From Sphingopyxis chilensis (GTDB lineage: Bacteria; Pseudomonadota; Alphaproteobacteria; Sphingomonadales; Sphingomonadaceae), in contig NZ_CP142394.1 of assembly GCF_035930445.1 (NCBI RefSeq), positions 1,149,501-1,213,500 on the forward strand: a stretch of DNA of 64,000 nucleotides. Direction: 5' to 3'. The position numbers and the translations under genes are program-made. Of this stretch, positions 19,465-31,155 are shown piece after piece (position 1 is the first letter of the stretch; each line of letters starts with the position of its first letter). The notes under the pieces are model-generated. The model did no database searches, was not told the DNA's origin, and was given only the letters and a program-made list of their open reading frames with translations.

Positions 19465-19983
19465 TCAGCCGGAGATGAGCCGCGTCAGCGCCTGCGCGAT
19501 GCCCAGCCCGCCGAGGAGGCTGATGACCATGACCACGAGCATCGTCGCCACGATCGCCAGTCTCGCTGAAGAGCCATGATCGTGGCTCCCGATCTTCCCG
19601 AACGGCAGGCCTGTGCCCCAGGAGCCAACCGGAATTCCCCCGTCGGCATTCGCCTGCATGGGCTCCGATGGATCGCCGTCCGCGAAGTCGGATGGCACGA
19701 AGGTGGGCGCGGAGGGAATATCCATCGGATCATATGTGATCCGATCATATGTCCGTTTGAGACGCGCATAGCGCCGTGCCGCGTCATGACGGTCGGTGGC
19801 GCCAAGTATATTTCGCGCCGTGGTAATCCGCTGATCGACCGTCGGTTTGGAAATGTCGAGCTCGATCGCGATCTGCTTCGATGTCTTGCGCTCGAGGAGG
19901 AGGTCGAGGCAGGCGCGCTGTTTCTCGGTCAGCCGATCCCAGCACGCGCGGTCGGCGAGTTCAGAAGATTGCGACCCTTCCAT
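19465..19983 (-). CDS. membrane-anchored LuxR-type HTH regulator
   Basis: Protein of about 172 residues. An N-terminal LuxR/NarL-type helix-turn-helix (LTEKQRACLDLLLERKTSKQIAIELDISKPTVDQRITTAR) is followed by a flexible linker and a C-terminal membrane segment (LAIVATMLVVMVISLLGGLGIA). It has no autoinducer-binding domain, so it is not a classical AHL receptor despite the luxI gene next door. DNA-binding domains tethered by a C-terminal helix can respond to membrane or periplasmic cues. The ATG at 19983 is chosen; a GTG at 20016 would add 11 residues. It diverges from luxI across a region holding a 17-bp palindrome. Confidence 0.75.
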   Translation of the reverse strand: MEGSQSSELADRACWDRLTEKQRACLDLLLERKTSKQIAIELDISKPTVDQRITTARNILGATDRHDAARRYARLKRTYDRITYDPMDIPSAPTFVPSDFADGDPSEPMQANADGGIPVGSWGTGLPFGKIGSHDHGSSARLAIVATMLVVMVISLLGGLGIAQALTRLISG

Positions 19984-20165
19984 CCTGGCAGTTTCAGGAT
20001 AAAAGCGCGTGTACACAAGTCTTTAATCAAGCGCCCCGCACGGCAACCTGGCAATAGCCGGTCACAGGACCGGTTGGAAGCGATTGCAGAGACTTGGCAG
20101 GGCGGCGGTGCGCACCGGATCGGTTCCAGCGATCGCGGCGCGGGAAGTGGCCGCATTCAAGAACA

Positions 20166-20182: not shown

Positions 20183-20367
20183 AACCCTACGAATATAATG
20201 GAAATATATGGGCGGCCGGATAGCCTGAGGGTTCGAATCGCCGTCCGACCAGCGGCGATGCGCCACCGCCGGTCCGCCGCCTGGTTGAGAAGGCCCGCGG
20301 CCGGCCCGATGGGGGCAATGCCGGACCGGCAGGCTTGAGGACGCCGCCCGGCTTGCCAAGGGTTGCC

Positions 20368-21081
20368 ATGCCGACATGCGATGCCGCGCCGCCGCGCGGC
20401 TGGATTGATATTCGACGCGCCCAGGCGGAAAGTCGCCGCGCGCGCGCCGCCGATGCCGCGCCGCGCCGCGCTTCACCGGTGATGCTGGTCGTCGATCAGA
20501 CCATGCGCGCGCATGAGCATGTCGCGCTCCGGTCGATGTTCGCCGCGCGCAAGCGGGTCTTCGTCGATCTCCTGAACTGGGACCTACCGGTGCTCGCCGG
20601 CCGCTATGAGGTCGATCGCCGCGATCGTCCCGGTGCGACCTATCTGATCATAGCCGGCGCCGACGGGGAACATCTCGCGTCGGCGCGCCTGCTTCCCGAA
20701 ACCGCGGCCAGTCTCCGCCGGTTCGAAGAGCGCATATTCGAACCGGGTGCTTCGAACGCGGGGGTCGCCGAAGTGACGCATTTCTGTCTTTCGCCCGATA
20801 TCACTTCCGACGCGAGGCGCCGCGCGCGCGATCAGTTGCTTTACGGGCTCGTCGATCATGCGCTTGCCCGGCACATTCAGTGCTTCCTCGGAATCGCCGA
20901 GCCGCGGTTAGCGCGACGGATCGAGGGTCTGGGATGGGCGTGTCGCCGCCTGGGTGCGATCCACTCGTCCGGCGGACGGGATATGGTGGCAGTCGCCGTC
21001 GATGTCGATGCCGCGACGCCAGCGCGGCTTGCAGGGGCAGGGATCGCCAGGCCGACGGCGTCCTGGCCAATGTCGTCATGA
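20368..21081 (+). CDS. acyl-homoserine-lactone synthase (LuxI family)
   Basis: Makes N-acyl-homoserine lactones from S-adenosylmethionine and acyl-ACP. The family core is clear: LRSMFAARKRVFVDLLNWDLPV with its conserved Arg and Phe, the acidic YEVDRRDRPGATYLI, ASARLLPET, and FEPGASNAGVAEVTHFCLSP. The start is uncertain: the ATG at 20368 has AAGGG 5 nt upstream and gives 237 residues, while the ATG at 20482 (MLVVDQTM) gives 199 residues, closer to usual LuxI length, but has a poor ribosome site. The stop overlaps the start of a GntR regulator (ATGA). No classical LuxR receptor with an autoinducer domain is visible in the window. Confidence 0.87.
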   Translation: MPTCDAAPPRGWIDIRRAQAESRRARAADAAPRRASPVMLVVDQTMRAHEHVALRSMFAARKRVFVDLLNWDLPVLAGRYEVDRRDRPGATYLIIAGADGEHLASARLLPETAASLRRFEERIFEPGASNAGVAEVTHFCLSPDITSDARRRARDQLLYGLVDHALARHIQCFLGIAEPRLARRIEGLGWACRRLGAIHSSGGRDMVAVAVDVDAATPARLAGAGIARPTASWPMSS

Positions 21082-21701
21082 GCCCTGGCGCGACGATGGA
21101 GCGTGTCTACCGCGAACTCAAGGCGCGCGCCATGCGAGGCGAATTCGCGCCGGGCGATCGCCTCGACCCTTCGGTTCTCGCGCGCGATCTCGGCGCGAGC
21201 GCAACTCCGGTGCGCGATGCCCTCCATCGCCTGTCGGGCGAGCGGATCGTCGACAGTTGGCACCAGGAAGGATTTCGGCAGCCGATCCTCGCCGAGGCGG
21301 ATCTCCACGATCTTTATGAATGGGCGGCGTCGCTTCTCGCGCTGGCGCTCGCTGGGCAGATGCCCGACGCGGCTTTGCCCGATCGGGTAGCGGGCGAAAT
21401 TCGCGACTCCGACTATGCCGGCGAGGTCGCCCGTCTGTTCCGCGCGACTGCCTGGCTCAGCGACAATCGCGAACTGCGCTTTGCGGTTTCAAATCTGGTC
21501 GAGCGATCGCACGTCTTTCGCGCAGCCGAACTGCGGGTCGATCCCGGCTGCGGCGCGGAGATCGCGGCGATGGACGAGGATTTTCGGTTCGGCCGCTGGA
21601 GTGCGCTGCGCGCCAGGATCACGCGTTTTCATCACCGCCGCCTGGAGTTTGCCGGGCGCGTCGTGGCCGAGATGCGTCCGCGCGAACAGCCGCTCGGATG
21701 A
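21078..21701 (+). CDS. GntR-family regulator coupled to luxI
   Basis: Regulator of 207 residues. It opens with a GntR winged helix (MERVYRELKARAMRGEFAPGDRLDPSVLARDLGASATPVRDALHRLSGERIVDS). The remaining 130 residues are helical and resemble a short or diverged FCD-type effector domain, with His and Arg near the C-terminus (RITRFHHRRLEFAG). The ATG at 21078 overlaps the luxI stop codon, so it is translationally coupled to the AHL synthase. It ends about 110 bp before the lasso precursor gene on the same strand, making it a candidate regulator of that locus. The ligand is unknown. Confidence 0.82.
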   Translation: MSPGATMERVYRELKARAMRGEFAPGDRLDPSVLARDLGASATPVRDALHRLSGERIVDSWHQEGFRQPILAEADLHDLYEWAASLLALALAGQMPDAALPDRVAGEIRDSDYAGEVARLFRATAWLSDNRELRFAVSNLVERSHVFRAAELRVDPGCGAEIAAMDEDFRFGRWSALRARITRFHHRRLEFAGRVVAEMRPREQPLG

Positions 21702-21809
21702 GCTGCAGAATATATTCGAACAATATTGGAATTATAAAATTCCTATATGAAATCATGCGTTTAACTATCAGGGCGCTGCAATTCCGCGGCACCGTGAAAG
21801 GAAATGAAG
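21702..21809 (+). promoter_or_regulatory. lasso precursor promoter region with palindromes
   Basis: AT-rich 108 bp in a GC-rich locus. It holds the palindrome GAATATATTC (21708-21717) and an inverted repeat GGAATT/AATTCC with a 4-bp spacer (21728-21743), both upstream of the precursor start. The same 10-mer also occurs at 17424-17433, upstream of the DUF2285 gene. AAGGA at 21798-21802 is the ribosome site for the ATG at 21810. Confidence 0.45.
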
Positions 21810-21932
21810 ATGGAACGCAATGATGCGCTCGAAACGGTCGATCTCGGCCAGGTCAGCACCGACACGCACGGCGAGGAAGGCCGTCCGATCGAAGGTGCGG
21901 GACTGCTTCCCGTGACCGGCATCAGCGACTGA
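21810..21932 (+). CDS. lasso peptide precursor
   Basis: A 40-residue peptide, below normal gene-calling size. The leader is MERNDALETVDLGQVSTDTH and the predicted core GEEGRPIEGAGLLPVTGISD. It has the class features: the leader motif DLG-x-V-x(3)-T, Thr at position -2 before the cut, Gly as core residue 1, and an acidic residue (Glu8) placed to close an eight-residue macrolactam with the Gly1 amine. The ATG at 21810 has AAGGA 7 nt upstream; an ATG at 21804 is too close to it. B and C maturation genes follow at once. By hand calculation the cyclised core has a monoisotopic mass of about 1948.0 Da. The core matches no lasso sequence I recall. Confidence 0.9.
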   Translation: MERNDALETVDLGQVSTDTHGEEGRPIEGAGLLPVTGISD

Positions 21933-21940
21933 CACTCCGG

Positions 21941-21974
21941 GTCGGGCGCCCGCTCTTCGGTGCAGGCGCCCGAC
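21941..21974 (+). terminator. hairpin between lasso precursor and B gene
   Basis: Perfect 10-bp inverted repeat GTCGGGCGCC (21941-21950) and GGCGCCCGAC (21965-21974) with a 14-nt loop, starting 8 nt after the precursor stop. No U-tract follows. It probably reduces read-through into B and C or stabilises the precursor mRNA so that much more peptide than enzyme is made. Confidence 0.65.
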
Positions 21975-21987
21975 GAGGCGCGCAGCC

Positions 21988-22629
21988 ATGAACATGCAGC
22001 TTTCCCCCGGCATTTCCTATTGTCGAACGCCACATGGATTTGTCTTCCTGGACCTGCGGCGCGATCGATATTTTCAGCTCGCCCCGTGCGAGGGCGACAT
22101 ATTCGAGCGGCTCTTGCGTGGAGAAGCCGCCGAAGGCGCGCTCCAGCCTTTTGTCGATGCCGAGATCCTGCAGCGCGTCGAAGGAGATTTCGCTTGCGCT
22201 CCAGCGGAGGCGAAGATCGCTCCCGACGACATTTATGGTCTGGAACCAGTGCGTCCTTCGTTGGCGGTTGCGTTCGAGACCGGATATCATGTGCTATGCG
22301 CACGCTCGGCCATTCGGGCCGCCCGGCTGGAGACGGCGATCGTCGCCCTGTCTCGCCGGAAAGCCAAGGCACGGTGGGACTTGGGCGCAATCACCGGCGC
22401 GGCGTTGCGATTCGACGCCAATCGCTCATCGATCCCGGTCGCGCGCCGCTGCCTGATCGATTCCGTCGCGCTGATGCGCATGCTGTTGGCCCGCGGGCTT
22501 GCGGCCGACCTCATATTCGGTGTTCGTACCGGTCCGTTCGCGGCTCACTGCTGGCTGCAGGCCGGCGATCATGTGCTCACCTGTGCGCAGGATGAAGCGC
22601 GCAACTTCACGCCGATCCTCGTCATATGA
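21988..22629 (+). CDS. lasso peptide B protein (RRE plus leader peptidase)
   Basis: Protein of 213 residues that binds the precursor leader and cleaves it. The N-terminal 80 residues are PqqD/RRE-like (GISYCRTPHGFVFLDLRRDRYFQLAPCEGDIFERLL), the leader-recognition part. The C-terminal part is the transglutaminase-like cysteine protease: RRCLIDSVALMRMLLARGL with the likely nucleophile Cys155, then GPFAAHCWLQAGDHVLT with His187. Fusion of both modules in one chain is normal for proteobacterial loci. It starts 55 bp after the precursor stop, past a hairpin, and its stop overlaps the start of the cyclase gene. Confidence 0.9.
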   Translation: MNMQLSPGISYCRTPHGFVFLDLRRDRYFQLAPCEGDIFERLLRGEAAEGALQPFVDAEILQRVEGDFACAPAEAKIAPDDIYGLEPVRPSLAVAFETGYHVLCARSAIRAARLETAIVALSRRKAKARWDLGAITGAALRFDANRSSIPVARRCLIDSVALMRMLLARGLAADLIFGVRTGPFAAHCWLQAGDHVLTCAQDEARNFTPILVI

Positions 22630-24323
22630 TGAAACGCGGGATCCTGCTAGCATTCGGGACGCATGACCTTGGTGATGTCGAGGTCACCGCCGACGACGCA
22701 GGCCTGGTCGCGCATGCGACGCCATTTGCCAACGTCCATGTCGGGCGGGAACTCCCGGTCGAATTGCTGTCCGACACCGCCGTGGTGGGGGATTGCTTTG
22801 CCTATTCCGGGGAGAGCCGACGCGTCTGGGGGGATTATCTCCGCTTTTCCCTCGTCGGGCATGGCGCGCTCCGGGTGGAACGGGCGCCGGTTACCGGGAT
22901 GCCGCTCTATTGGACTCGGTGGCGGCGCGGCATTCTCTGTTTCTCGCATCTCGAACTCGCGGCCCGCCTGGGAGTCGATCTTGCTGTAGACTGGGACTTC
23001 GTCCGCCACAGCCTTGCCTACCGCAACTTTCGCACCGAACGAACGGGGATCGCGGGTGTCGCCGAGATTCTGCCCGGAACCGCCCTGACATTCGATGGCG
23101 TGGAGCCTTCCGCAGCCCCGTTCTGGTCACCCTGGTCGCATGTGGCCCGGGACTCTGGCGCCGGTCTTGAGAGCGCCGCGGCGGTGGTCGAGGACTGCAC
23201 CCTGATGTGTGTCGATCGCTGGGCGAAGCAGTCCGAGGATCGATGGTTGGAGCTTTCCGGCGGGCTCGACAGTTCGATCATCGCATCTTCGCTCACGGCC
23301 TGTGGTTATAGTTTCAGAGCCGTAACCGCGGTCACAGCGACACCAGACGGCGATGAACGGCGCTATGCTCGCGACGTCGCCCGTCAGTGCGGCGCGAGCC
23401 TCGTCGAGGCGCCGATCGACGAGGCGGCGATCGACCTGCTCTCAGAGCCTGAACATCTGACCGTGCGACCCGCCGCCGCGTCGATACTTGCCGGATTTGA
23501 TCGGGCCATCGCGCGAGCGGTCAGCGCGCGAGACGGCGACCAAATCTGGAGCGGCATCGGCGGGGACAATATCTTTGGCTACAGCCATTCGGTCTCGCCG
23601 GCGATCGATGCCTGGCAAGCGAAGGGATTGCGCGCGCCCCTGTTCCGTCTGCTCGGAGACATTGCCGCCGTGGCGGGGACGACGCGGTGGCATGCGGCAA
23701 GGGCTCTGGGGCGCAGGCTTCGTGCGCGAACGTCGCGCCCGCTTTGGCCGCGCGACGATATCTTCGCAGAAAGATCGGCGTTGCCCGCTACTCCGTTCAG
23801 ACATCCTTGGCACGAAGCCGCCAGCGACTTTCCACCGGGGAAGCGGCAGCATGTCGAGGCGCTGATGCGCATCGCCGACTTCATGGACAGGCCCGACCGT
23901 TGGCATGACAGAAAAGTGGTGGCTCCGCTTCTGTCACAGCCGCTCGTCGAGGCCTGCCTCGCTATCCCGAGCTGGCTCTGGATTTCGGGCGGGCGTGACC
24001 GCGCGGTCGCGCGCGCGGCTTTCGCGCGTCAATTGCCGCCGTCGGTCCTGCATCGCCGCACCAAGGGCCGCCTCGAGGCGATGTGCGCCGCCGCCTTCCA
24101 GCGCGAGCGGGCGCGTCTGGCGCCATTCCTGCTCGAAGGCCGGATCGCGACGCATGGGCTGCTCGATCGCCCGGAAATAGAGCGCTATTTTTCCCGGGAA
24201 GGCGTCGATGCCGAGTTTGCCTATTTTCGGCTCCTTGAGATCGCGGACCTCGAGCGCTGGGTCCGGTTGGTCGAGTCCCGGTCCTGCTCGACGGGCAAAA
24301 GCGACGCCCAGCGCGCATATTGA
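22626..24323 (+). CDS. lasso cyclase, asparagine-synthetase-like C protein
   Basis: ATP-dependent enzyme of 565 residues that activates the side-chain carboxylate of the core's ring residue (Glu8 here) as an acyl-adenylate and closes the lactam onto Gly1. The N-terminal part resembles the glutaminase domain of asparagine synthetase B but lacks its Cys1. The synthetase domain has the pyrophosphate-loop motif SGGLDSS at residues 211-217 and the later WSGIGGDNIFGYSHS. The start overlaps the B stop. The last 103 bp overlap the 3' end of the convergent isopeptidase gene, so the two C-terminal tails are read from both strands of the same DNA. Confidence 0.9.
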   Translation: MMKRGILLAFGTHDLGDVEVTADDAGLVAHATPFANVHVGRELPVELLSDTAVVGDCFAYSGESRRVWGDYLRFSLVGHGALRVERAPVTGMPLYWTRWRRGILCFSHLELAARLGVDLAVDWDFVRHSLAYRNFRTERTGIAGVAEILPGTALTFDGVEPSAAPFWSPWSHVARDSGAGLESAAAVVEDCTLMCVDRWAKQSEDRWLELSGGLDSSIIASSLTACGYSFRAVTAVTATPDGDERRYARDVARQCGASLVEAPIDEAAIDLLSEPEHLTVRPAAASILAGFDRAIARAVSARDGDQIWSGIGGDNIFGYSHSVSPAIDAWQAKGLRAPLFRLLGDIAAVAGTTRWHAARALGRRLRARTSRPLWPRDDIFAERSALPATPFRHPWHEAASDFPPGKRQHVEALMRIADFMDRPDRWHDRKVVAPLLSQPLVEACLAIPSWLWISGGRDRAVARAAFARQLPPSVLHRRTKGRLEAMCAAAFQRERARLAPFLLEGRIATHGLLDRPEIERYFSREGVDAEFAYFRLLEIADLERWVRLVESRSCSTGKSDAQRAY

Positions 24324-26194
24324 GCGGCCTTTTCGGGGTCCGGATCGATGCGATCCTGTAACCAATAGCGAAACCAGTCGAAATTGCGGACATAGGCCGC
24401 GAATTTCTGCCGGGGTGCTACCTTGATGTGCGGCGCGAGCGGGAAGATGTGGAGCTCGCCCTTGCGCCCCGCAATCAACCTGGCATGAAGTTCGGGCGAA
24501 AGGCGGGCCTCCTTCTCGGGCAATTGCATGAGAACCGGCGCTTCGATCGTCGAGACATTCGCGGCGGGCGACAGGCGTCTCCACAACTCCCTGTTCTCGT
24601 CAGGCGACCCGAGCCCCCAATATTTGCGAAAATTATCTTTGAAGCGACCGTGATCGGCGATGATATTGAACCAGTAATAGGCGGGCTCGATCTGCGCCGA
24701 GGCTATCGAGGCCGCACGAAGCAAATTGCTATTTGCGGCGATCCACATCGTTACTTCGCTGCCAAAGCTGAGACCGCCCATGCCGACGCGGCGGCGGTCG
24801 ATCCGTCCTTGCCGGTCGAGCATCTCGACGGCGGTTCGGACCGCCTCGAGTCCGTTATCGTAACGTACTTGGGCGCTTTCGTCGGTGACGGGCAGGGCGT
24901 TGATGCAGAGCGCGGCGATGCCACTTGCCGCCAGCGCGCGCAGCGGCCATTCGTCGCCGAGACCGCCGCGCAGAAAGCCGGCACAGCGGTAATAGCTAAC
25001 GAAAAGCGGCAGCCGCCCGGGGATCTTCGGGCGAAGGAGCCAGCCCGACGCGCGGCTGCCGCCCACCCGCCATGCGACGGGTTCGACGATGAGCTTGTCG
25101 CGGGCGCGATTCAAATTGGGTGCGGCCACGACGTGAAGCGGATCGCCGTCGAACGCCACCCGAACGAGGCGCGGGGGCTGATCGGCCGCAGCCTCGACGC
25201 AAAAGAGCGCATCTTGGGAGGCGGCGCATCGCGAGCCTTCACGCCGCCCGCCGTTGAGAAATCCTCGGGCCGTGCGCAGAATCTTGAGGCGCTTCGCCCG
25301 GTCGTCCCAGATGTCGATGCGCTGTCCGAGGACGCCGTCGATGGTCGTAACTGCCCAGCGGCCGTCACCGAGGGGCAGCGACGACGACAGGCGACGGGGG
25401 CCGCATCGGGGCATCGTGCGATTGCACGCGGTGGTTGCGATCGCCGCGGCTATGGCATCTTCGGGGGGCGCCGGCGGCTTGGCGTCGAGCAGAGCGCGCT
25501 CCCTGGCCACAGCGACGGCGTCGATTCCCGCATTGGGGTCATGCGCGACGACCTTTCGGGGAGCATCCCAAAGCAGGGGTGCGCTATCGAACCACTCTCC
25601 CGTCCAGCGCTCGCTGCCAGTCTCGTTGCCATGGAGGGCATCCCGATAAATTCCCCCGGCAAGATTGACCTGTTCGTCCATCAGCACGCCGCGATCGCGC
25701 GCCTCGCTGTTCGCGCGCAGAATCGCATCGCGCGGCGGTCCGATCTCCGCGATGAGCTTGCCGTCGGGCGCGACCGCGAAGCGCTCGACATCGCCGTCGG
25801 CCTCGAAGGCCGGCGAGGAAGGCCCCGCGATGCGCATCGACCAAATCCCGATGCGGCCATCTCGCCGAGCGCGGACGAGGAAACTCTTGCTGTCCGGCAT
25901 CCAAATCGCTTGTCCCGGTTCGATAACGCCGGCCGAATCCCAGGTCGCGTGGGCGCCACGCCCGACAGGGCGAGGCGGCGATCGGCCATCCGCGGCAACA
26001 ATGTACCATTGGGTATCGATAACATTGTGCGCGATCGACGGGCGTTCGATCCGGTAGGCGATCCACTGCCCGTCGGGCGATGCCGCAAGCCCGGAAATAT
26101 CGGCGACTTCGGTGACCCTTTCGATTTCCTGCACCGCGGCGCCGGGTGACGTGGCAGCAAGCGCCACTGCCGCAATCGTCATGCCGCTCACCAT
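24221..26194 (-). CDS. lasso peptide isopeptidase (AtxE2-like, S9 fold)
   Basis: Prolyl-oligopeptidase-fold hydrolase of 657 residues that opens the macrolactam of its cognate lasso peptide, as AtxE2 does for astexins. A signal-like N-terminus (GMTIAAVALAATSPGAA) implies export. A beta-propeller region with repeated blade motifs (AASPDGQWIAYRIERP, AVAPDGKLIAEIG) precedes the alpha/beta-hydrolase domain. The nucleophile is Ser476 in GLSFGSE, and His589 in APHIK is the likely base. It occurs only with lasso loci of this TonB/FecR type. The ATG at 26194 overlaps the receptor stop; the ATG at 26182 is a possible alternative. The C-terminal 34 codons overlap the cyclase gene. Confidence 0.9.
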   Translation of the reverse strand: MVSGMTIAAVALAATSPGAAVQEIERVTEVADISGLAASPDGQWIAYRIERPSIAHNVIDTQWYIVAADGRSPPRPVGRGAHATWDSAGVIEPGQAIWMPDSKSFLVRARRDGRIGIWSMRIAGPSSPAFEADGDVERFAVAPDGKLIAEIGPPRDAILRANSEARDRGVLMDEQVNLAGGIYRDALHGNETGSERWTGEWFDSAPLLWDAPRKVVAHDPNAGIDAVAVARERALLDAKPPAPPEDAIAAAIATTACNRTMPRCGPRRLSSSLPLGDGRWAVTTIDGVLGQRIDIWDDRAKRLKILRTARGFLNGGRREGSRCAASQDALFCVEAAADQPPRLVRVAFDGDPLHVVAAPNLNRARDKLIVEPVAWRVGGSRASGWLLRPKIPGRLPLFVSYYRCAGFLRGGLGDEWPLRALAASGIAALCINALPVTDESAQVRYDNGLEAVRTAVEMLDRQGRIDRRRVGMGGLSFGSEVTMWIAANSNLLRAASIASAQIEPAYYWFNIIADHGRFKDNFRKYWGLGSPDENRELWRRLSPAANVSTIEAPVLMQLPEKEARLSPELHARLIAGRKGELHIFPLAPHIKVAPRQKFAAYVRNFDWFRYWLQDRIDPDPEKAAQYARWASLLPVEQDRDSTNRTQRSRSAISRSRK

Positions 26195-29136
26195 CGGAAG
26201 CTCGCCGACAACGACATCATGCGGCCGACGGCATTGGCCTTGTCGGGATCATAGCCGAGCGCCGAGGTGTTCGTCCGGTTGGTCACATAGGGCGGTGCCT
26301 TGTCGAACAGGTTCGTCGCCGACAGCGCCAACCGCAGGTGACGGCTATCCTCGCTGCCGATCCGTTGCGCGATCTGCAGATCGAAAGTGGTCCAGCTCGC
26401 GACCTGCTCGGCAATAGCGGGGATCTGATTGCGATAGCCGCCGATAAAGTTGGCAAAACTGCTGATCGAGAAGCCATCGCGCGTCCAGCCGAGCCGGCCA
26501 CGCAGCCGCCACTTCGAGGGGCTGGCAAATGTGCCGACGACGTCATCGACGGGCGCGCCCGCAGCGAGTTCGCGGTCGATATGAAAGATGCGGCTGCCGG
26601 CGATGCCGGCGTCGAGTGTGCCTCCGGCGAAGGCGGGCGCAAAGCCGAGGTCGAAATCGAGCCCGGTCTGTCGCACGCGCGAAAGGTTGCGGATGCGCCC
26701 GTCGAGAATCGCGCTGATTTGGTCCGGCGCGAGCCCGAGCGGGTTCGAAAAGGTCGGTTGAGCGAAATAATAGGCGAGATTGGCGGCCGTGGGCGGCTCT
26801 TCGATCAGCCCGCCGAAGACGTCGCGCCGGTTGAGAAAATTGGCGAAATCCTCGTTCGCTGTCCCGATGCGGTCGCGATAATCGACGTGATAATAGGTGA
26901 TCGACGCGCGCAGTGCGGGGATTGTCGGCGGACTAAGGTCGAGTCCGGCGGTCCAGGTCTTCGCCTTCTCGGGGCGGATGTCGGGCGCATAGCCGAAGAG
27001 GGCGAGAACATTGGCCTGACCGCTGGCTGCGCTTGGATCGGCGACTTGCGTCGCGAGATAGAGCGAAACGGTCGGGCCGATCAGCTCCTCGAAACTCGGC
27101 GCGCGAAACGAGGTGCCATAAGATCCGCGCAGCGCAACGCCCTCGAGCGGCTCCCAGCGCACGCCGATCTTCGGATTGGTGGTGCGGCCGACGTCGCTAT
27201 AATCCTCGATCCGGGCGGCGAGCGACAGATCGAGCCGGTGGACGCCGGGCATCGCAGCGTCGGCGTCGATCAGCGGCACATTGAGTTCCGCATAGGCCGA
27301 CCGCACATGGCGCGGTCCCGGAAGCTCGGGGTTGAGGTTCTCGACCGGCGCGAGCGAACTGATGTCCGACAGCGACCGGGCGCGATAATGTTCGCGCCGA
27401 TATTCCGCGCCGATCGCGAGCCGGATGTCGCCGGCGGGCAGGGTGAAGACCGGGCCGTCGGCACGCAGGGCCACCGACCGGCTGTCGAAGCGCGTTGTCG
27501 CGATGCGTCCGCCGCGGATGAAGGCGACCGTCGCCGGATTGTTCGCGGCTCCGTCGCCGAAGACATTGAGCGCGGTCGCCGGGTTGGTGTCCGCGAGCGC
27601 CTGCGCGATGCGCGCCCGGTTGGGCACATTGAGATCGGTTCGTTTTTCGACCTGGCGGCCATAGGCACCGCCAATTGCGATCCGCCATGGACCGACCTCG
27701 CGTTCGAGGTTGGCGGCGGCAGAAATGCCTTTCACCCGTCCGCGGTCGATCTCCGGCCCCAAATCGTTGACGAAGCTGTAGCGTACCGAAACCGGGCGGC
27801 CGGTGCCGACGGGATCGACGTAAAAGGGATTGGTCACCGGAACGGTGACCGCGCTCGACGTCTCGGGCAGCGCGCGCTTTTCATAGGTCCGGTGCGTGGC
27901 GAGGAGGCTGGCACGGAGCGTCAACCGCTCGGCCAACGCGAACTCGCCCGCGGCGTAGAGGCTGTGGGTCCGCTGATGGGGTATGATGTCGGTAGCCGCG
28001 CGCGCGTCGCGATAATTGACCGTGCCCGGGGTCAGGTCGGCGGGAGACAGACCGGTTCCGTCCTGACCGGCCGGGATCGCGTAGGGATCGGTGCCGACGA
28101 AGATTGTCCCTGGCACCCCGTAGGTGGAGCGATAGTCGAGGCCCCCGAAGGGGCGGAGGTCTTCGGTAACGAAAGGTCGCTTCGACGCTGCAAGCCGACC
28201 GCGATCCTCGAATTGATAGGCAAGGACGACATGCGCTTTCGACCATCGGCGGCCCACGATCTGACTTGCGAGCAGGTTGGTCATGTCCCCGTCGGCGGTG
28301 CCCGCAGTCAATGTCGTCTCGGCGCCTTCGAAGCGGTTCCTGAGCCTGAGATTGACGACGCCCGCGACCGCGTCGGCGCCATAGATCGCCGAAGCGCCGT
28401 CGGTGAGCACCTCGATCCGCTCGACGGCGCCGAGCGGGATCATCGACAGGTCGGCGAACACGCCTCCGAGCCCGCCCAGGGCAGGGCGCGTGCCGTCGAT
28501 CAGGACGAGGGTCGAGGAGGCGCCGAGACCCTTGAGATTGATGCTCGATCCATAGCCGCCATTGGAGCCCGCCCCGTTGCGCGTACCCGAGCCCAGCGTC
28601 GATTCATTGGGACCCGCGCCGAAATTTTGCGGAAGCGACTGGACGACCTGCTGGACGGAAGAAAGGCCGCTGCGCTCGATCGCGGTTCGATCGATCGTGG
28701 TGACCGGCGAACCGACCGGCCCCGTCCCGCGAATTCGGGTGCCCGTGACGACGATCGCTTCGCTCGCGGGCGTGTCGGTCGCTGGCGCGCTCGCTTCGCT
28801 CGGAGCCGCTGCCGCGAGCGGGGCGTCCTTTCGCTTGCGCAGGACGAGCGCCCCATCGACGCGTTCGGCGACGAGGCCGGTGCCCGAAAGAAGTCGTTCG
28901 AGAGCCGCGTCGGGGGCGAGGCGGCCATGGACGCCCCGGCTGCGGCGGCCCTCGACCAGCGTGGCCGCCGCGACGACGTCGCGCCCCGACACCCGCGAAT
29001 ATTCGTTGAGGGCGTCGGCGAGGCGCTGCGCCGCGATATTGTAGTCCGCCTCGCCGGTCTGCGCCTGCGCGCTCGGCGCGCCTGTCGCGAGACCGCTTGC
29101 CGTCGTGAGCAAGGCCGCCAGATAAAGTCTTTTCAT
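26188..29136 (-). CDS. TonB-dependent receptor with STN domain, lasso locus
   Basis: Outer-membrane receptor-transducer of 982 residues. After the signal peptide (LLTTASGLATGAPSAQAQ) comes a secretin/TonB N-terminal (STN) domain (NIAAQRLADALNEYSRVSGRDVV, then GTGLVAERVDGALVL), which contacts a FecR-type anti-sigma factor. The TonB box region is EAIVVTGTRIRGTG, the plug contains RIEVLTDGASAIYGADAVAGVVN, and the barrel ends SLSASFRW. In lasso loci such receptors are thought to bind the secreted peptide or a complex of it and trigger the sigma cascade. The ATG at 29136 has AGGGAGGG upstream. The isopeptidase gene starts within its stop. Confidence 0.93.
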   Translation of the reverse strand: MKRLYLAALLTTASGLATGAPSAQAQTGEADYNIAAQRLADALNEYSRVSGRDVVAAATLVEGRRSRGVHGRLAPDAALERLLSGTGLVAERVDGALVLRKRKDAPLAAAAPSEASAPATDTPASEAIVVTGTRIRGTGPVGSPVTTIDRTAIERSGLSSVQQVVQSLPQNFGAGPNESTLGSGTRNGAGSNGGYGSSINLKGLGASSTLVLIDGTRPALGGLGGVFADLSMIPLGAVERIEVLTDGASAIYGADAVAGVVNLRLRNRFEGAETTLTAGTADGDMTNLLASQIVGRRWSKAHVVLAYQFEDRGRLAASKRPFVTEDLRPFGGLDYRSTYGVPGTIFVGTDPYAIPAGQDGTGLSPADLTPGTVNYRDARAATDIIPHQRTHSLYAAGEFALAERLTLRASLLATHRTYEKRALPETSSAVTVPVTNPFYVDPVGTGRPVSVRYSFVNDLGPEIDRGRVKGISAAANLEREVGPWRIAIGGAYGRQVEKRTDLNVPNRARIAQALADTNPATALNVFGDGAANNPATVAFIRGGRIATTRFDSRSVALRADGPVFTLPAGDIRLAIGAEYRREHYRARSLSDISSLAPVENLNPELPGPRHVRSAYAELNVPLIDADAAMPGVHRLDLSLAARIEDYSDVGRTTNPKIGVRWEPLEGVALRGSYGTSFRAPSFEELIGPTVSLYLATQVADPSAASGQANVLALFGYAPDIRPEKAKTWTAGLDLSPPTIPALRASITYYHVDYRDRIGTANEDFANFLNRRDVFGGLIEEPPTAANLAYYFAQPTFSNPLGLAPDQISAILDGRIRNLSRVRQTGLDFDLGFAPAFAGGTLDAGIAGSRIFHIDRELAAGAPVDDVVGTFASPSKWRLRGRLGWTRDGFSISSFANFIGGYRNQIPAIAEQVASWTTFDLQIAQRIGSEDSRHLRLALSATNLFDKAPPYVTNRTNTSALGYDPDKANAVGRMMSLSASFRW

Positions 29137-29212
29137 CAAACCCTCCCTTGCAGCCGCATTCCGGCTGTCTGGTTGGCTCGATGACGTGGGGAAACCTGGC
29201 CCCCCGTTTTTC

Positions 29213-30127
29213 TTACGGGTGCTTGAGAATCGGACCGCTTGGGCCGGTGTCGAGCCCGAGGTCGAGCGCGGCGGCGAGCTTGCGCGCGAGCGCATCGCCA
29301 TCGCCGATCTCGAACCGACCGCTCACCCGAAGGGCGGCGAGCGCGGGATCGGCGAGGCCGATCTTTCGCCTATTCACGCGATTGGCGCGATCGACGATCG
29401 CGCCGAGCGGGAGATTGTCGGCGTCGAGCTTGCTCGTCGCGACGGGGCTGGCCATCGCCGGCACGCGGCGCGGGCCATCGGCACCGACCTCGGCGCTTTC
29501 GCCGGGCGCGAGGCGCAGCGCCGGACTACCCGCCGACCGGCGCGCGACGTCGACCGAGCCTTCGAGCAAACGAATGCGCGGGGCGGCGCCGCGCATATCG
29601 ATCTCGAACACCGTACCGAGCGCGGTTGTCACCGACGTTCCCGCGACGACGCGGAAGGGGCGGCTCGCATCATGGGCGACGGTGAAGCGGGCGCGGCCGC
29701 CGGTCATCGTCACCACGCGTTCGCTGCGCGTGAACTGGGTCTCGACCTTGGCGCCGTCGAGCAGCGCGACCAGCGTGCCGTCGTCGAGGCGCTGCTCGCC
29801 CGTCGGTCCCGTAATTGCGATCACCGGCTTCGCGGCGTCGGGACCGATCGCGGTCCAGGCGAAACCCGCCGAAAGCGAGAGCATTATGGCGGCGGCTATC
29901 GCCCATTGCTGATGGCGTTTCCGCCGCGCTGCGTCGTACGGGCCCGCGAGGCTGGCGATCTCCTGGGCCGAAAGCTGCGAGGTGGCCTCGAAATCGCGGC
30001 GCAGGATCGCATAAGCTTTCGCATTGGCGGGATCGTCGTGCCACGCTTCGAACGCCGCGCGATACCGCTCGGCATCGGGGCCCTCCATCAATGCGAGCCA
30101 GTCTTCGGCGTTACGCCCGCCGATCAT
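29213..30127 (-). CDS. FecR-type anti-sigma factor / sigma regulator
   Basis: Single-pass inner-membrane protein of 304 residues. A cytoplasmic N-terminal part (residues 1-70, with the conserved DWLALMEGPDAERYRAAFEAW and AYAILRRDFEA) binds the sigma factor. A membrane helix follows (WAIAAAIMLSLSAGFAWTAI), then a periplasmic FecR domain (GPTGEQRLDDGTLVALLDGAKVETQF; GTVFEIDMRG) that senses the STN domain of the receptor. It lies 76 bp upstream of the receptor gene and overlaps the sigma gene by 4 bp (ATGA). Confidence 0.92.
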   Translation of the reverse strand: MIGGRNAEDWLALMEGPDAERYRAAFEAWHDDPANAKAYAILRRDFEATSQLSAQEIASLAGPYDAARRKRHQQWAIAAAIMLSLSAGFAWTAIGPDAAKPVIAITGPTGEQRLDDGTLVALLDGAKVETQFTRSERVVTMTGGRARFTVAHDASRPFRVVAGTSVTTALGTVFEIDMRGAAPRIRLLEGSVDVARRSAGSPALRLAPGESAEVGADGPRRVPAMASPVATSKLDADNLPLGAIVDRANRVNRRKIGLADPALAALRVSGRFEIGDGDALARKLAAALDLGLDTGPSGPILKHP

Positions 30128-30702
30128 CTGCCGTCCCGCCGCGAGCGGCGGATCGCCCCGAGCGCCTTGGCCATCTGCTTTTCCACGCCTTTCACGCTCA
30201 TCCCCTGTGCGGCAGCGATCTCCTCATAACTGAGGCCATCGAGTCGATGCATCAGGAAAATGGTCCGTGTCTTCGGCTTGAGGCGGGCGACCACATCGGC
30301 GAGGCGGCGGATCGTATCGCGCGCCTCAAGCGCCGCGTGCGGGTCGGGGCCGGCATGGTCGTCCTCATCGAACGAGCCGTGATCGGCCTGCATCCGGCGA
30401 CCGTCGGCGCGTGCGCGCTCGGCGAGCAGGTTGCGCGCGGTCTGGACGAGATAGGCTGCGGGCCGGTCGATCAGGCTGGCGGCTGCGCCGCGACTCTGGG
30501 TGAAGCGGCGAAAGCATTCCTGCACCAGATCGGAAACGTCTTGTGCCGGCGCCCGGCGGCGGAAATAGCGGGCGAGCTCCGGGCCATGGGCGGTGTAGAT
30601 CGCCTCGACGCGCGTGCCGGCTGCGAAGCCGTTCCACTCGTCGGGCGGCAAGGGGTCGCCTTCCGCGATACTTCGCCTGCCTTGGTCTTCGTCGTAATCC
30701 AT
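30124..30702 (-). CDS. ECF sigma factor, FecI type
   Basis: Extracytoplasmic-function sigma factor of 192 residues. Region 2 is YTAHGPELARYFRRRAPAQDVSDLVQECFRRF with a tail AAYLVQTARNLLAERAR. Region 4 is LKPKTRTIFLMHRLDGLSYEEIAAAQGMSVKGVEKQMAKALGAI. With FecR and the STN receptor it forms a cell-surface signalling cascade that would switch on the receptor and isopeptidase genes. The ATG at 30702 has GGAAGG at proper spacing; an in-frame ATG at 30723 lacks a ribosome site. Confidence 0.92.
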   Translation of the reverse strand: MDYDEDQGRRSIAEGDPLPPDEWNGFAAGTRVEAIYTAHGPELARYFRRRAPAQDVSDLVQECFRRFTQSRGAAASLIDRPAAYLVQTARNLLAERARADGRRMQADHGSFDEDDHAGPDPHAALEARDTIRRLADVVARLKPKTRTIFLMHRLDGLSYEEIAAAQGMSVKGVEKQMAKALGAIRRSRRDGR

Positions 30703-31155
30703 CGCCTCCGCCTTCCCGCGCATCGGCGGAAAGGCGGCTTTGAAGCCGGGTGTTAAGAATAAGCTTGAGGCTTACGCCGCAACCTTTAGCCCGAGGGCCT
30801 GAACATGCGCAGCGGCCACCCGGCAGGATGGCGATTGGGATTTCGTCTCAAGCGGGCTTCTTACGACCCGGCATCGCGCGCCTCGGGCTCGATGCGCCTT
30901 CAGCATAGCCCGCCGTAGCGTCGGGGCAAGAGTCTGGGAAAAAATTGGTCCGAACCGAATCAAATGGCGGAGCAAACGCGCATGTCGGTGGTGCCGAGCG
31001 CCGTCTCGATTGCCTCCCGCGTTAGCGCCGCCTTGGTCGTCGATGCGCTTTGCCGTGGCCCTGCCGTGCCTGCCGTCGGTGCACCGCGCCTGTCGGCGCG
31101 CATGCGGGGGAGAGGCTTGCCAGCAGCGACAATGTCGGCAAGAATCGCGGCGGAC
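30703..31155 (+). other. intergenic region, no gene recognised
   Basis: About 450 bp between the divergent sigma-factor and nucleotidyltransferase genes. It should hold the promoter of the sigma/FecR operon. Short open frames exist on both strands but none has a ribosome site plus family features. Confidence 0.4.

Follow-up and report, generated by a model that had tools for sequence, protein, structure and literature searches.

Lasso peptide clusters of the isopeptidase type have been described with a GntR gene placed before the precursor gene, and with a TonB transporter and a sigma/anti-sigma pair after the isopeptidase gene; according to the same excerpts of the review, the known products of such clusters lack antimicrobial activity, with the exception of astexin-1 (PMC9266682). 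The sphingocin cluster of Sphingomonas sp. BPH likewise has A, B and C genes and no ABC transporter, and its isopeptidase and TonB receptor genes are divergent; disruption of its B gene by Tn5 left the strain unable to use phenanthrene, a possible role for comparable clusters (PMC11006600, in part). Sphingomonads also carry novR-novI-phyH modules with the order LuxR-LuxI-PhyH, and in the case of novINsub3 a GntR gene is found beside phyH (excerpts of PMC3704786 and PMC5012321). NovINsub3 makes mainly C8-OH and C10-OH acyl-homoserine lactones (AHLs), and the GntR gene comes after phyH (excerpts of PMC5012321). Here, we describe a locus in a 64,000-nucleotide stretch of Sphingopyxis chilensis DNA (the window) that resembles the astexin-2/-3, benenodin-1 and sphingopyxin clusters in having GntR, A, B and C genes, an AtxE2-type isopeptidase, a TonB receptor and a FecR/ECF pair. 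Compared with the novR-novI-phyH modules, it retains only a changed LuxI.

The precursor gene, A, is located at 21810–21932 on the forward strand and encodes a 40-residue protein comprising the leader MERNDALETVDLGQVSTDTH and the core GEEGRPIEGAGLLPVTGISD, followed by a stop codon; the assignment is based on the translation, a PF24178 match and an alignment of six sequences. The first-pass annotation had recognized a lasso precursor here with Thr at −2, Gly1 and Glu8, which the translation confirmed, and had placed the B and C enzyme genes directly 3' of A; B indeed starts 55 nt past the A stop. Thr −2 is the recognition residue for leader cleavage. Core positions 7–9 contain no acidic residue other than Glu8, and from the sequence the ring of GEEGRPIEGAGLLPVTGISD is predicted to join Gly1 to Glu8. 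The computed masses (1966.00 Da for the linear core and 1947.99 Da after dehydration) reproduce the expected product of about 1948.0 Da, 18 Da under the linear form. The gene had also been considered too short for routine calling, which is only partly correct, since database entries exist for two relatives, both under the name “hypothetical protein”, one from Sphingopyxis terrae and one from Sphingopyxis sp. MWB1. An alternative in-frame ATG at 21804 would give a 42-aa frame. The ribosome-binding site AAAGGA (21797–21802, forward strand) lies 7 nt before the ATG at 21810 and only 1 nt before that at 21804. We prefer the start at 21810 on account of this spacing and of the relatives, whose listed length is 40 aa.

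The 42-aa frame matched PF24178 (Subterisin) from its residue 3 with 29.2 bits, a margin of only 2.2 bits over the cut-off of 27, and in a six-frame scan the score was 27.4 bits, 0.4 above the cut-off. The window precursor did not pass the NCBIfam benenodin model (NF033522; 26 vs. 33 bits), and BLASTP at E ≤ 100 failed to align it with the precursor of a subterisin-type locus, L118. The window core shares Gly1, Gly4, Ile7, Glu8 and Leu12 with the L118 core, GPPGDRIEFGVLAQLPGLDRD, but the two differ in the loop and tail, and the window locus is without the LuxR and PhyH of the subterisin-type locus. The window core also differs from the sphingocin core, GPGFINNDGVGGKLPFAGLSDD, as given in the available part of PMC11006600.

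A search of 5.8 billion proteins at E ≤ 1 yielded five relatives of the window precursor, with identities of 95% (P0002), 88% (P0003), 83% (P0004), 83% (P0005, Sphingopyxis terrae) and 73% (P0006, Sphingopyxis sp. MWB1). In the alignment of the six orthologues, Thr −2, Gly1, Glu8 and the pattern GRP-x-EGAGL-x-PV-x-GI-x-D are invariant, and the variable core residues are 2, 3, 7, 13, 16 and 19. The P0002 core, GEEGRPIEGAGLFPVTGISD, differs from that of the window by L13F alone. The earlier suggestion that the core resembles none known was not supported: the precursor scores just over the Pfam subterisin cut-off, and near-identical precursors have been deposited. The GEEGRPIEGAGLLPVTGISD precursor adds a new member to a known family, and relatives of it are already in the databases. 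In a collection of genome contigs, none of the 99 stretches picked up with the C protein, and none of the 35 picked up with the precursor alignment, could be confirmed as a related locus. The strings GRPIEGAG, GDEGRPIEG, GEEGRPIEG and GRPFEGAG were absent from the open-licence PMC papers searched. PF24178 matches occur in 68 of 397 genomes of the family Sphingomonadaceae, and the window's own genome contains a single PF24178 match and a single C match. In G399, a second genome of this species, C has no relatives but distant ones (best 37% identity), and the cluster therefore varies within the species. G399, which is without the window's cluster, has two other lasso-like loci (L147 and L148) with LuxR, LuxI, PhyH and GntR genes.

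The B gene (21988–22629, forward strand) encodes a protein with a PqqD-like (RRE) N-terminal half followed by a transglutaminase-like leader peptidase, identified by NF033537 (68.9 bits; cut-off 33) and PF13471 (63.4; cut-off 26). The N-terminal half gave only sub-cut-off matches, to NF033530 (28.5 bits; cut-off 70) and, as a single weak match in a PDB sequence search, to TfuB1 (E = 0.0024). The C gene (22626–24323, forward strand) overlaps B by 4 nt and encodes a 565-aa asparagine-synthetase-like lasso cyclase (PF00733, 95.4 bits; cut-off 21), which passed no lasso-specific model (NF033535, 27.6 vs. a cut-off of 525) and had no match in a PDB sequence search. On the reverse strand, E (24221–26194) encodes a lasso peptide isopeptidase of the AtxE2 family (NF033523, 443.3 bits; cut-off 400) that could be aligned with the AtxE2 structure, 5txc (E = 6.9e-38), including the GxSxG serine and the His region. 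C and E are convergent, with a tail-to-tail overlap of 103 nt (24221–24323). Beyond E, on the same strand, are genes for a TonB-dependent receptor with an N-terminal STN domain (26188–29301; PF00593, PF07715 and PF07660 above cut-off), a FecR-like anti-sigma factor (29213–30127; PF04773, 47.5 bits; cut-off 24) and an ECF sigma factor (30124–30723; PF08281, 54.2 bits, cut-off 25.7; PF04542, 30.9 bits, cut-off 24). Directly upstream of A is a GntR-family regulator (21078–21701, forward strand; PF00392, 49.4 bits; cut-off 27). An AtxE2-family E, a GntR gene ahead of A and, beyond E, a TonB receptor with a sigma/anti-sigma pair place the locus with the isopeptidase-type clusters, and this gene order recurs in many related loci. 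Pfam and NCBIfam profiles revealed no exporter among the ten proteins profiled. The isopeptidase, TonB receptor, FecR, sigma factor and LuxI-like genes had gone unmentioned in the first-pass annotation. A GerE/sigma-4-like HTH protein that ends in a hydrophobic C-terminal segment is encoded at 19465–20016 (reverse strand), and L112, L117, L131, L132 and others likewise have such a protein close to the cluster.

We estimate at about 90% the probability that the 21810–21932 ORF encodes the precursor of a subterisin-kind lasso peptide from a cluster of the isopeptidase type (class II). Its shortness would be compatible with a chance reading frame; with five orthologues, a Pfam match and a position between GntR and B that is occupied by the precursor in related loci, the likelihood of this is negligible, and we consider it ruled out by the conservation. 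A genuine precursor could also give rise to a mature product that is branched-cyclic or easily unthreaded, with Leu12 and Leu13 too small to hold an eight-residue ring. The tail, which has no aromatic residue, Arg or Lys, would fit such a product, as would the Phe at position 13 in the closest relative. A tail without aromatics is not, however, as unusual as had been thought: no F, W, Y or H follows the ring acceptor in 31 of the 81 distinct related cores predicted from 86 distinct precursors. These were obtained by a pattern search of the 99 related loci, counting the window, in which B is present, and 11 of these loci gave no precursor; the pattern demands Thr −2, Gly1 and Asp or Glu at positions 7–9, and the survey is uninformative on those hallmarks. 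The cognate isopeptidase is also retained, and such enzymes need the threaded form (excerpts of PMC9266682). We therefore regard such a product as improbable and favor a threaded lasso peptide. Leu, Phe and Ile all occur at position 13 among the six orthologues, so that, judging by the alignment, this residue, together with Leu12, is likely to be at the lock.

The precursor gene is flanked by hairpins. Just upstream of the ribosome-binding site is a 5' hairpin, GCTGC-AATTCC-GCGGC (21775–21790, forward strand), which includes one G-U pair. A hairpin ending 14–24 nt before the precursor start was present in 69 of 78 distinct upstream regions, compared to a mean of 3.05 and a maximum of 5 in 20 sets of dinucleotide shuffles, and to between 0 and 6 at other positions in the same sequences. 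The stems themselves vary, with 28 distinct inner 5-bp stems among 73. Covariation was measured on 58 of 77 rows, chosen after the hairpins had been seen (19 were left out); on these, 91.1% of the cells pair, double changes occur in all six pairs, and the score of 0.461 exceeded those of all 500 shuffles (mean 0.218) and of slid versions (≤0.158). The outermost pair fails in 26 of the 58 rows, and the count of further pair types (14 vs. 11.8) was reached by 28 of the 500 shuffles. RNAalifold recovered five of the six pairs on the 58 chosen rows and found no consensus fold when all 77 upstream 50-mers were aligned. Between A and B is a perfect 10-bp hairpin (21941–21974, forward strand), and a strong hairpin downstream of A was found in 75 of 77 regions (5.7 in shuffles, maximum 12). 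By single-strand folding, z was −2.22 for the window's 5' region and −2.05 for its A–B region, and only −0.39 for the 5' region of MWB1. No Rfam match was found in 21600–22100 at E ≤ 1. Our guess is that the 5' hairpin acts as a 5'-end stabilizer and the 3' hairpin as a block, keeping the precursor message in excess. Further upstream, sequence comparison revealed a candidate promoter or GntR operator, TATAAAATTCCTATA (21733–21747, forward strand), common to several relatives.

Many of the related loci include a LuxR-LuxI-PhyH module. Eighty regions were fetched around PF24178 matches, a part of all those that matched. LuxI was found in 32 of them, always together with PhyH and GntR, and was absent from the remaining 48. 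Such absence is not proof, as the pieces compared were no longer than 20 kb (30 kb in the case of the window) and contig ends truncated some of them. Most often, the genes run LuxR-LuxI-PhyH-GntR-A-B-C and are faced by E-TonB-FecR-ECF; L148 and L188 instead have the module on the far side of the sigma gene. Pfam confirmed LuxR (PF03472 and PF00196), LuxI (PF00765) and PhyH (PF05721) in L132 and L093. Across the genus, 94 of 127 LuxI-like matches were located within 16 kb of a C-like match on the same contig, 60 of these within 5 kb, where the C-like matches (E ≤ 1e-20) may include non-lasso cyclases. The other 33 LuxI-like matches were not within 16 kb of a C-like match. These unlinked LuxI, together with the 48 LuxI-free regions, disfavor a strict linkage rule.

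The subterisin-type locus L118 also carries the module (L118:11671–12369), and both published novINsub3 primers match the ends of its luxI exactly. We take the L118 core to be subterisin, the lasso peptide of Sphingomonas/Novosphingobium subterranea, an assumption supported by this match to N. subterraneum primers. In the available text of PMC3704786 and PMC5012321, the word “lasso” does not occur, nor does “asparagine synth” in that of PMC5012321. For Qipengyuania pacifica, an antiSMASH region designated “Hserlactone, Lassopeptide” with an AtxE2 isopeptidase has been reported (excerpts of PMC9318849), so that co-location had already been seen in a single genome; in the literature searched, we found no account of a family-wide linkage between lasso peptides and quorum sensing.

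In the window, this module has been largely lost. What remains is a gene for a LuxI-like protein (20482–21081, forward strand; PF00765, 52.7 bits; cut-off 24) with His at residue 100, preceded by a luxR remnant (20246–20400, forward strand) that consists of the 5' flank and about 11 codons from an ATG at 20368. The remnant is similar to the start of the L132 luxR (74.5% identity over 161 columns, E = 1.6e-20). The alignment then ends, and the luxI gene starts at 20482; most of luxR is therefore missing. Among 53 loci with LuxI, LuxR is absent only in the window and in L131 (from MWB1), and both are also without PhyH at the locus. By Pfam, the host genome has no PF03472 LuxR and no second PF00765 LuxI, and of a cognate LuxR with an autoinducer-binding domain the window contains only the stub. 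The HTH protein at 19465–20016 was considered as the lost LuxR and rejected, as it has a GerE domain but no autoinducer-binding domain.

The AlphaFold model of the LuxI-like protein had a pLDDT of 71.8, with residues 21–44 poorly predicted, and its top Foldseek matches (6wns, 3p2h and 1ro5) are AHL synthases, in agreement with the PF00765 match and a LuxI fold. The protein is changed at six of the 36 columns that are invariant in the 51 other cluster LuxI. The L131 LuxI is changed at 14 of the 36 and had no Pfam match at E ≤ 0.01. Of the 51 others, 50 are off at none or one of the invariant columns and one, L190, is off at five. L190 has LuxR and PhyH and is possibly another eroding copy. The Arg after the E-x-T motif, which is needed for catalysis of AHL synthesis, is invariant in the 51 other cluster LuxI and is replaced by His100 in the window. 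In a larger set of 129 LuxI sequences (the best 120 of 1017 matches, window included, plus L131 and eight loci), 26 have His at this position, and Arg is present in 103 of the 128 other than the window. The 26 His-type sequences make up one side of a branch with 99% support in a quick tree, in which MWB1 is on a very long branch. They have kept long open frames and most invariant residues. The LuxR-derived N-terminus of the window protein is also found in P0009, P0018 and P0022, and in the alignment the Glu of the E-x-D motif (residue 43) has been lost in P0013, P0018 and P0022. The LuxI P0084, taken as sharing the contig of the precursor P0004, has Arg; going by these sequences, the core type may predate the change from Arg to His.

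An ordinary AHL synthase was rejected in view of the His at the invariant Arg and the lack of LuxR in the genome. A simple pseudogene was rejected as well, since the 26 His sequences share a well-supported branch, though erosion is plain in MWB1. The lasso peptide could instead be a quorum-sensing output, with the LuxI-like protein of the window lineage having taken on a new acyl-transfer role. The LuxR-LuxI-PhyH linkage in relatives, the persistence of the His-type sequences as long open frames with most invariant residues, and a host with no other LuxI and no LuxR would agree with such a change, but LuxI is absent from the 48 related loci noted above, the MWB1 copy is eroding, and the loss of the E-x-D Glu in three relatives makes slow decay equally possible; on balance, we consider the new role unlikely. 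A wider proposal holds that many sphingomonad isopeptidase clusters are quorum-sensing operons, in which AHL would switch on a lasso peptide that is re-imported and sensed through TonB, FecR and the sigma factor; in the window lineage, the AHL system would have been dismantled, LuxI turned to another acyl-transfer or regulatory role, and the lasso peptide left as the sole signal. We put this forward as a tentative idea that is decidedly unlikely to hold in full.

Based on the preferred reading, a subterisin-kind precursor with a threaded product, a pathway can be proposed. GntR would set transcription, and the hairpins flanking A would probably maintain more message for the precursor than for B and C. 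The B protein would bind the leader and cut after His20, and C would join Gly1 to Glu8 around the tail, yielding a 20-residue peptide (1947.99 Da) threaded through its eight-residue ring, with Leu12 and Leu13 as the probable lock. The peptide would then exit the cell and re-enter via the cognate TonB receptor, the STN domain of which would pass the signal via FecR to the ECF sigma factor; after uptake, the isopeptidase would open the ring. Genes, homology and conservation are what the sequences show; the biochemical steps, uptake, signaling and the role of the hairpins we infer. The chances that the uptake-and-sensing loop operates appear to us evenly balanced; if it does, it would constitute a self-sensed signal or a cargo loop and not an antibiotic. 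The cluster may also be silent.

The GEEGRPIEGAGLLPVTGISD core extends a known family, and what it leads to matters more than the core itself. The function of isopeptidase-type lasso peptides is left open in the available part of a review (PMC9266682). A working AHL synthase beside a subterisin-type cluster raises the concrete question of whether AHL switches on the lasso operon, and the loss of the module in the window lineage offers a natural comparison. The hairpins around the precursor gene are testable candidates for control elements. The quorum-sensing linkage and its loss in the window deserve follow-up.
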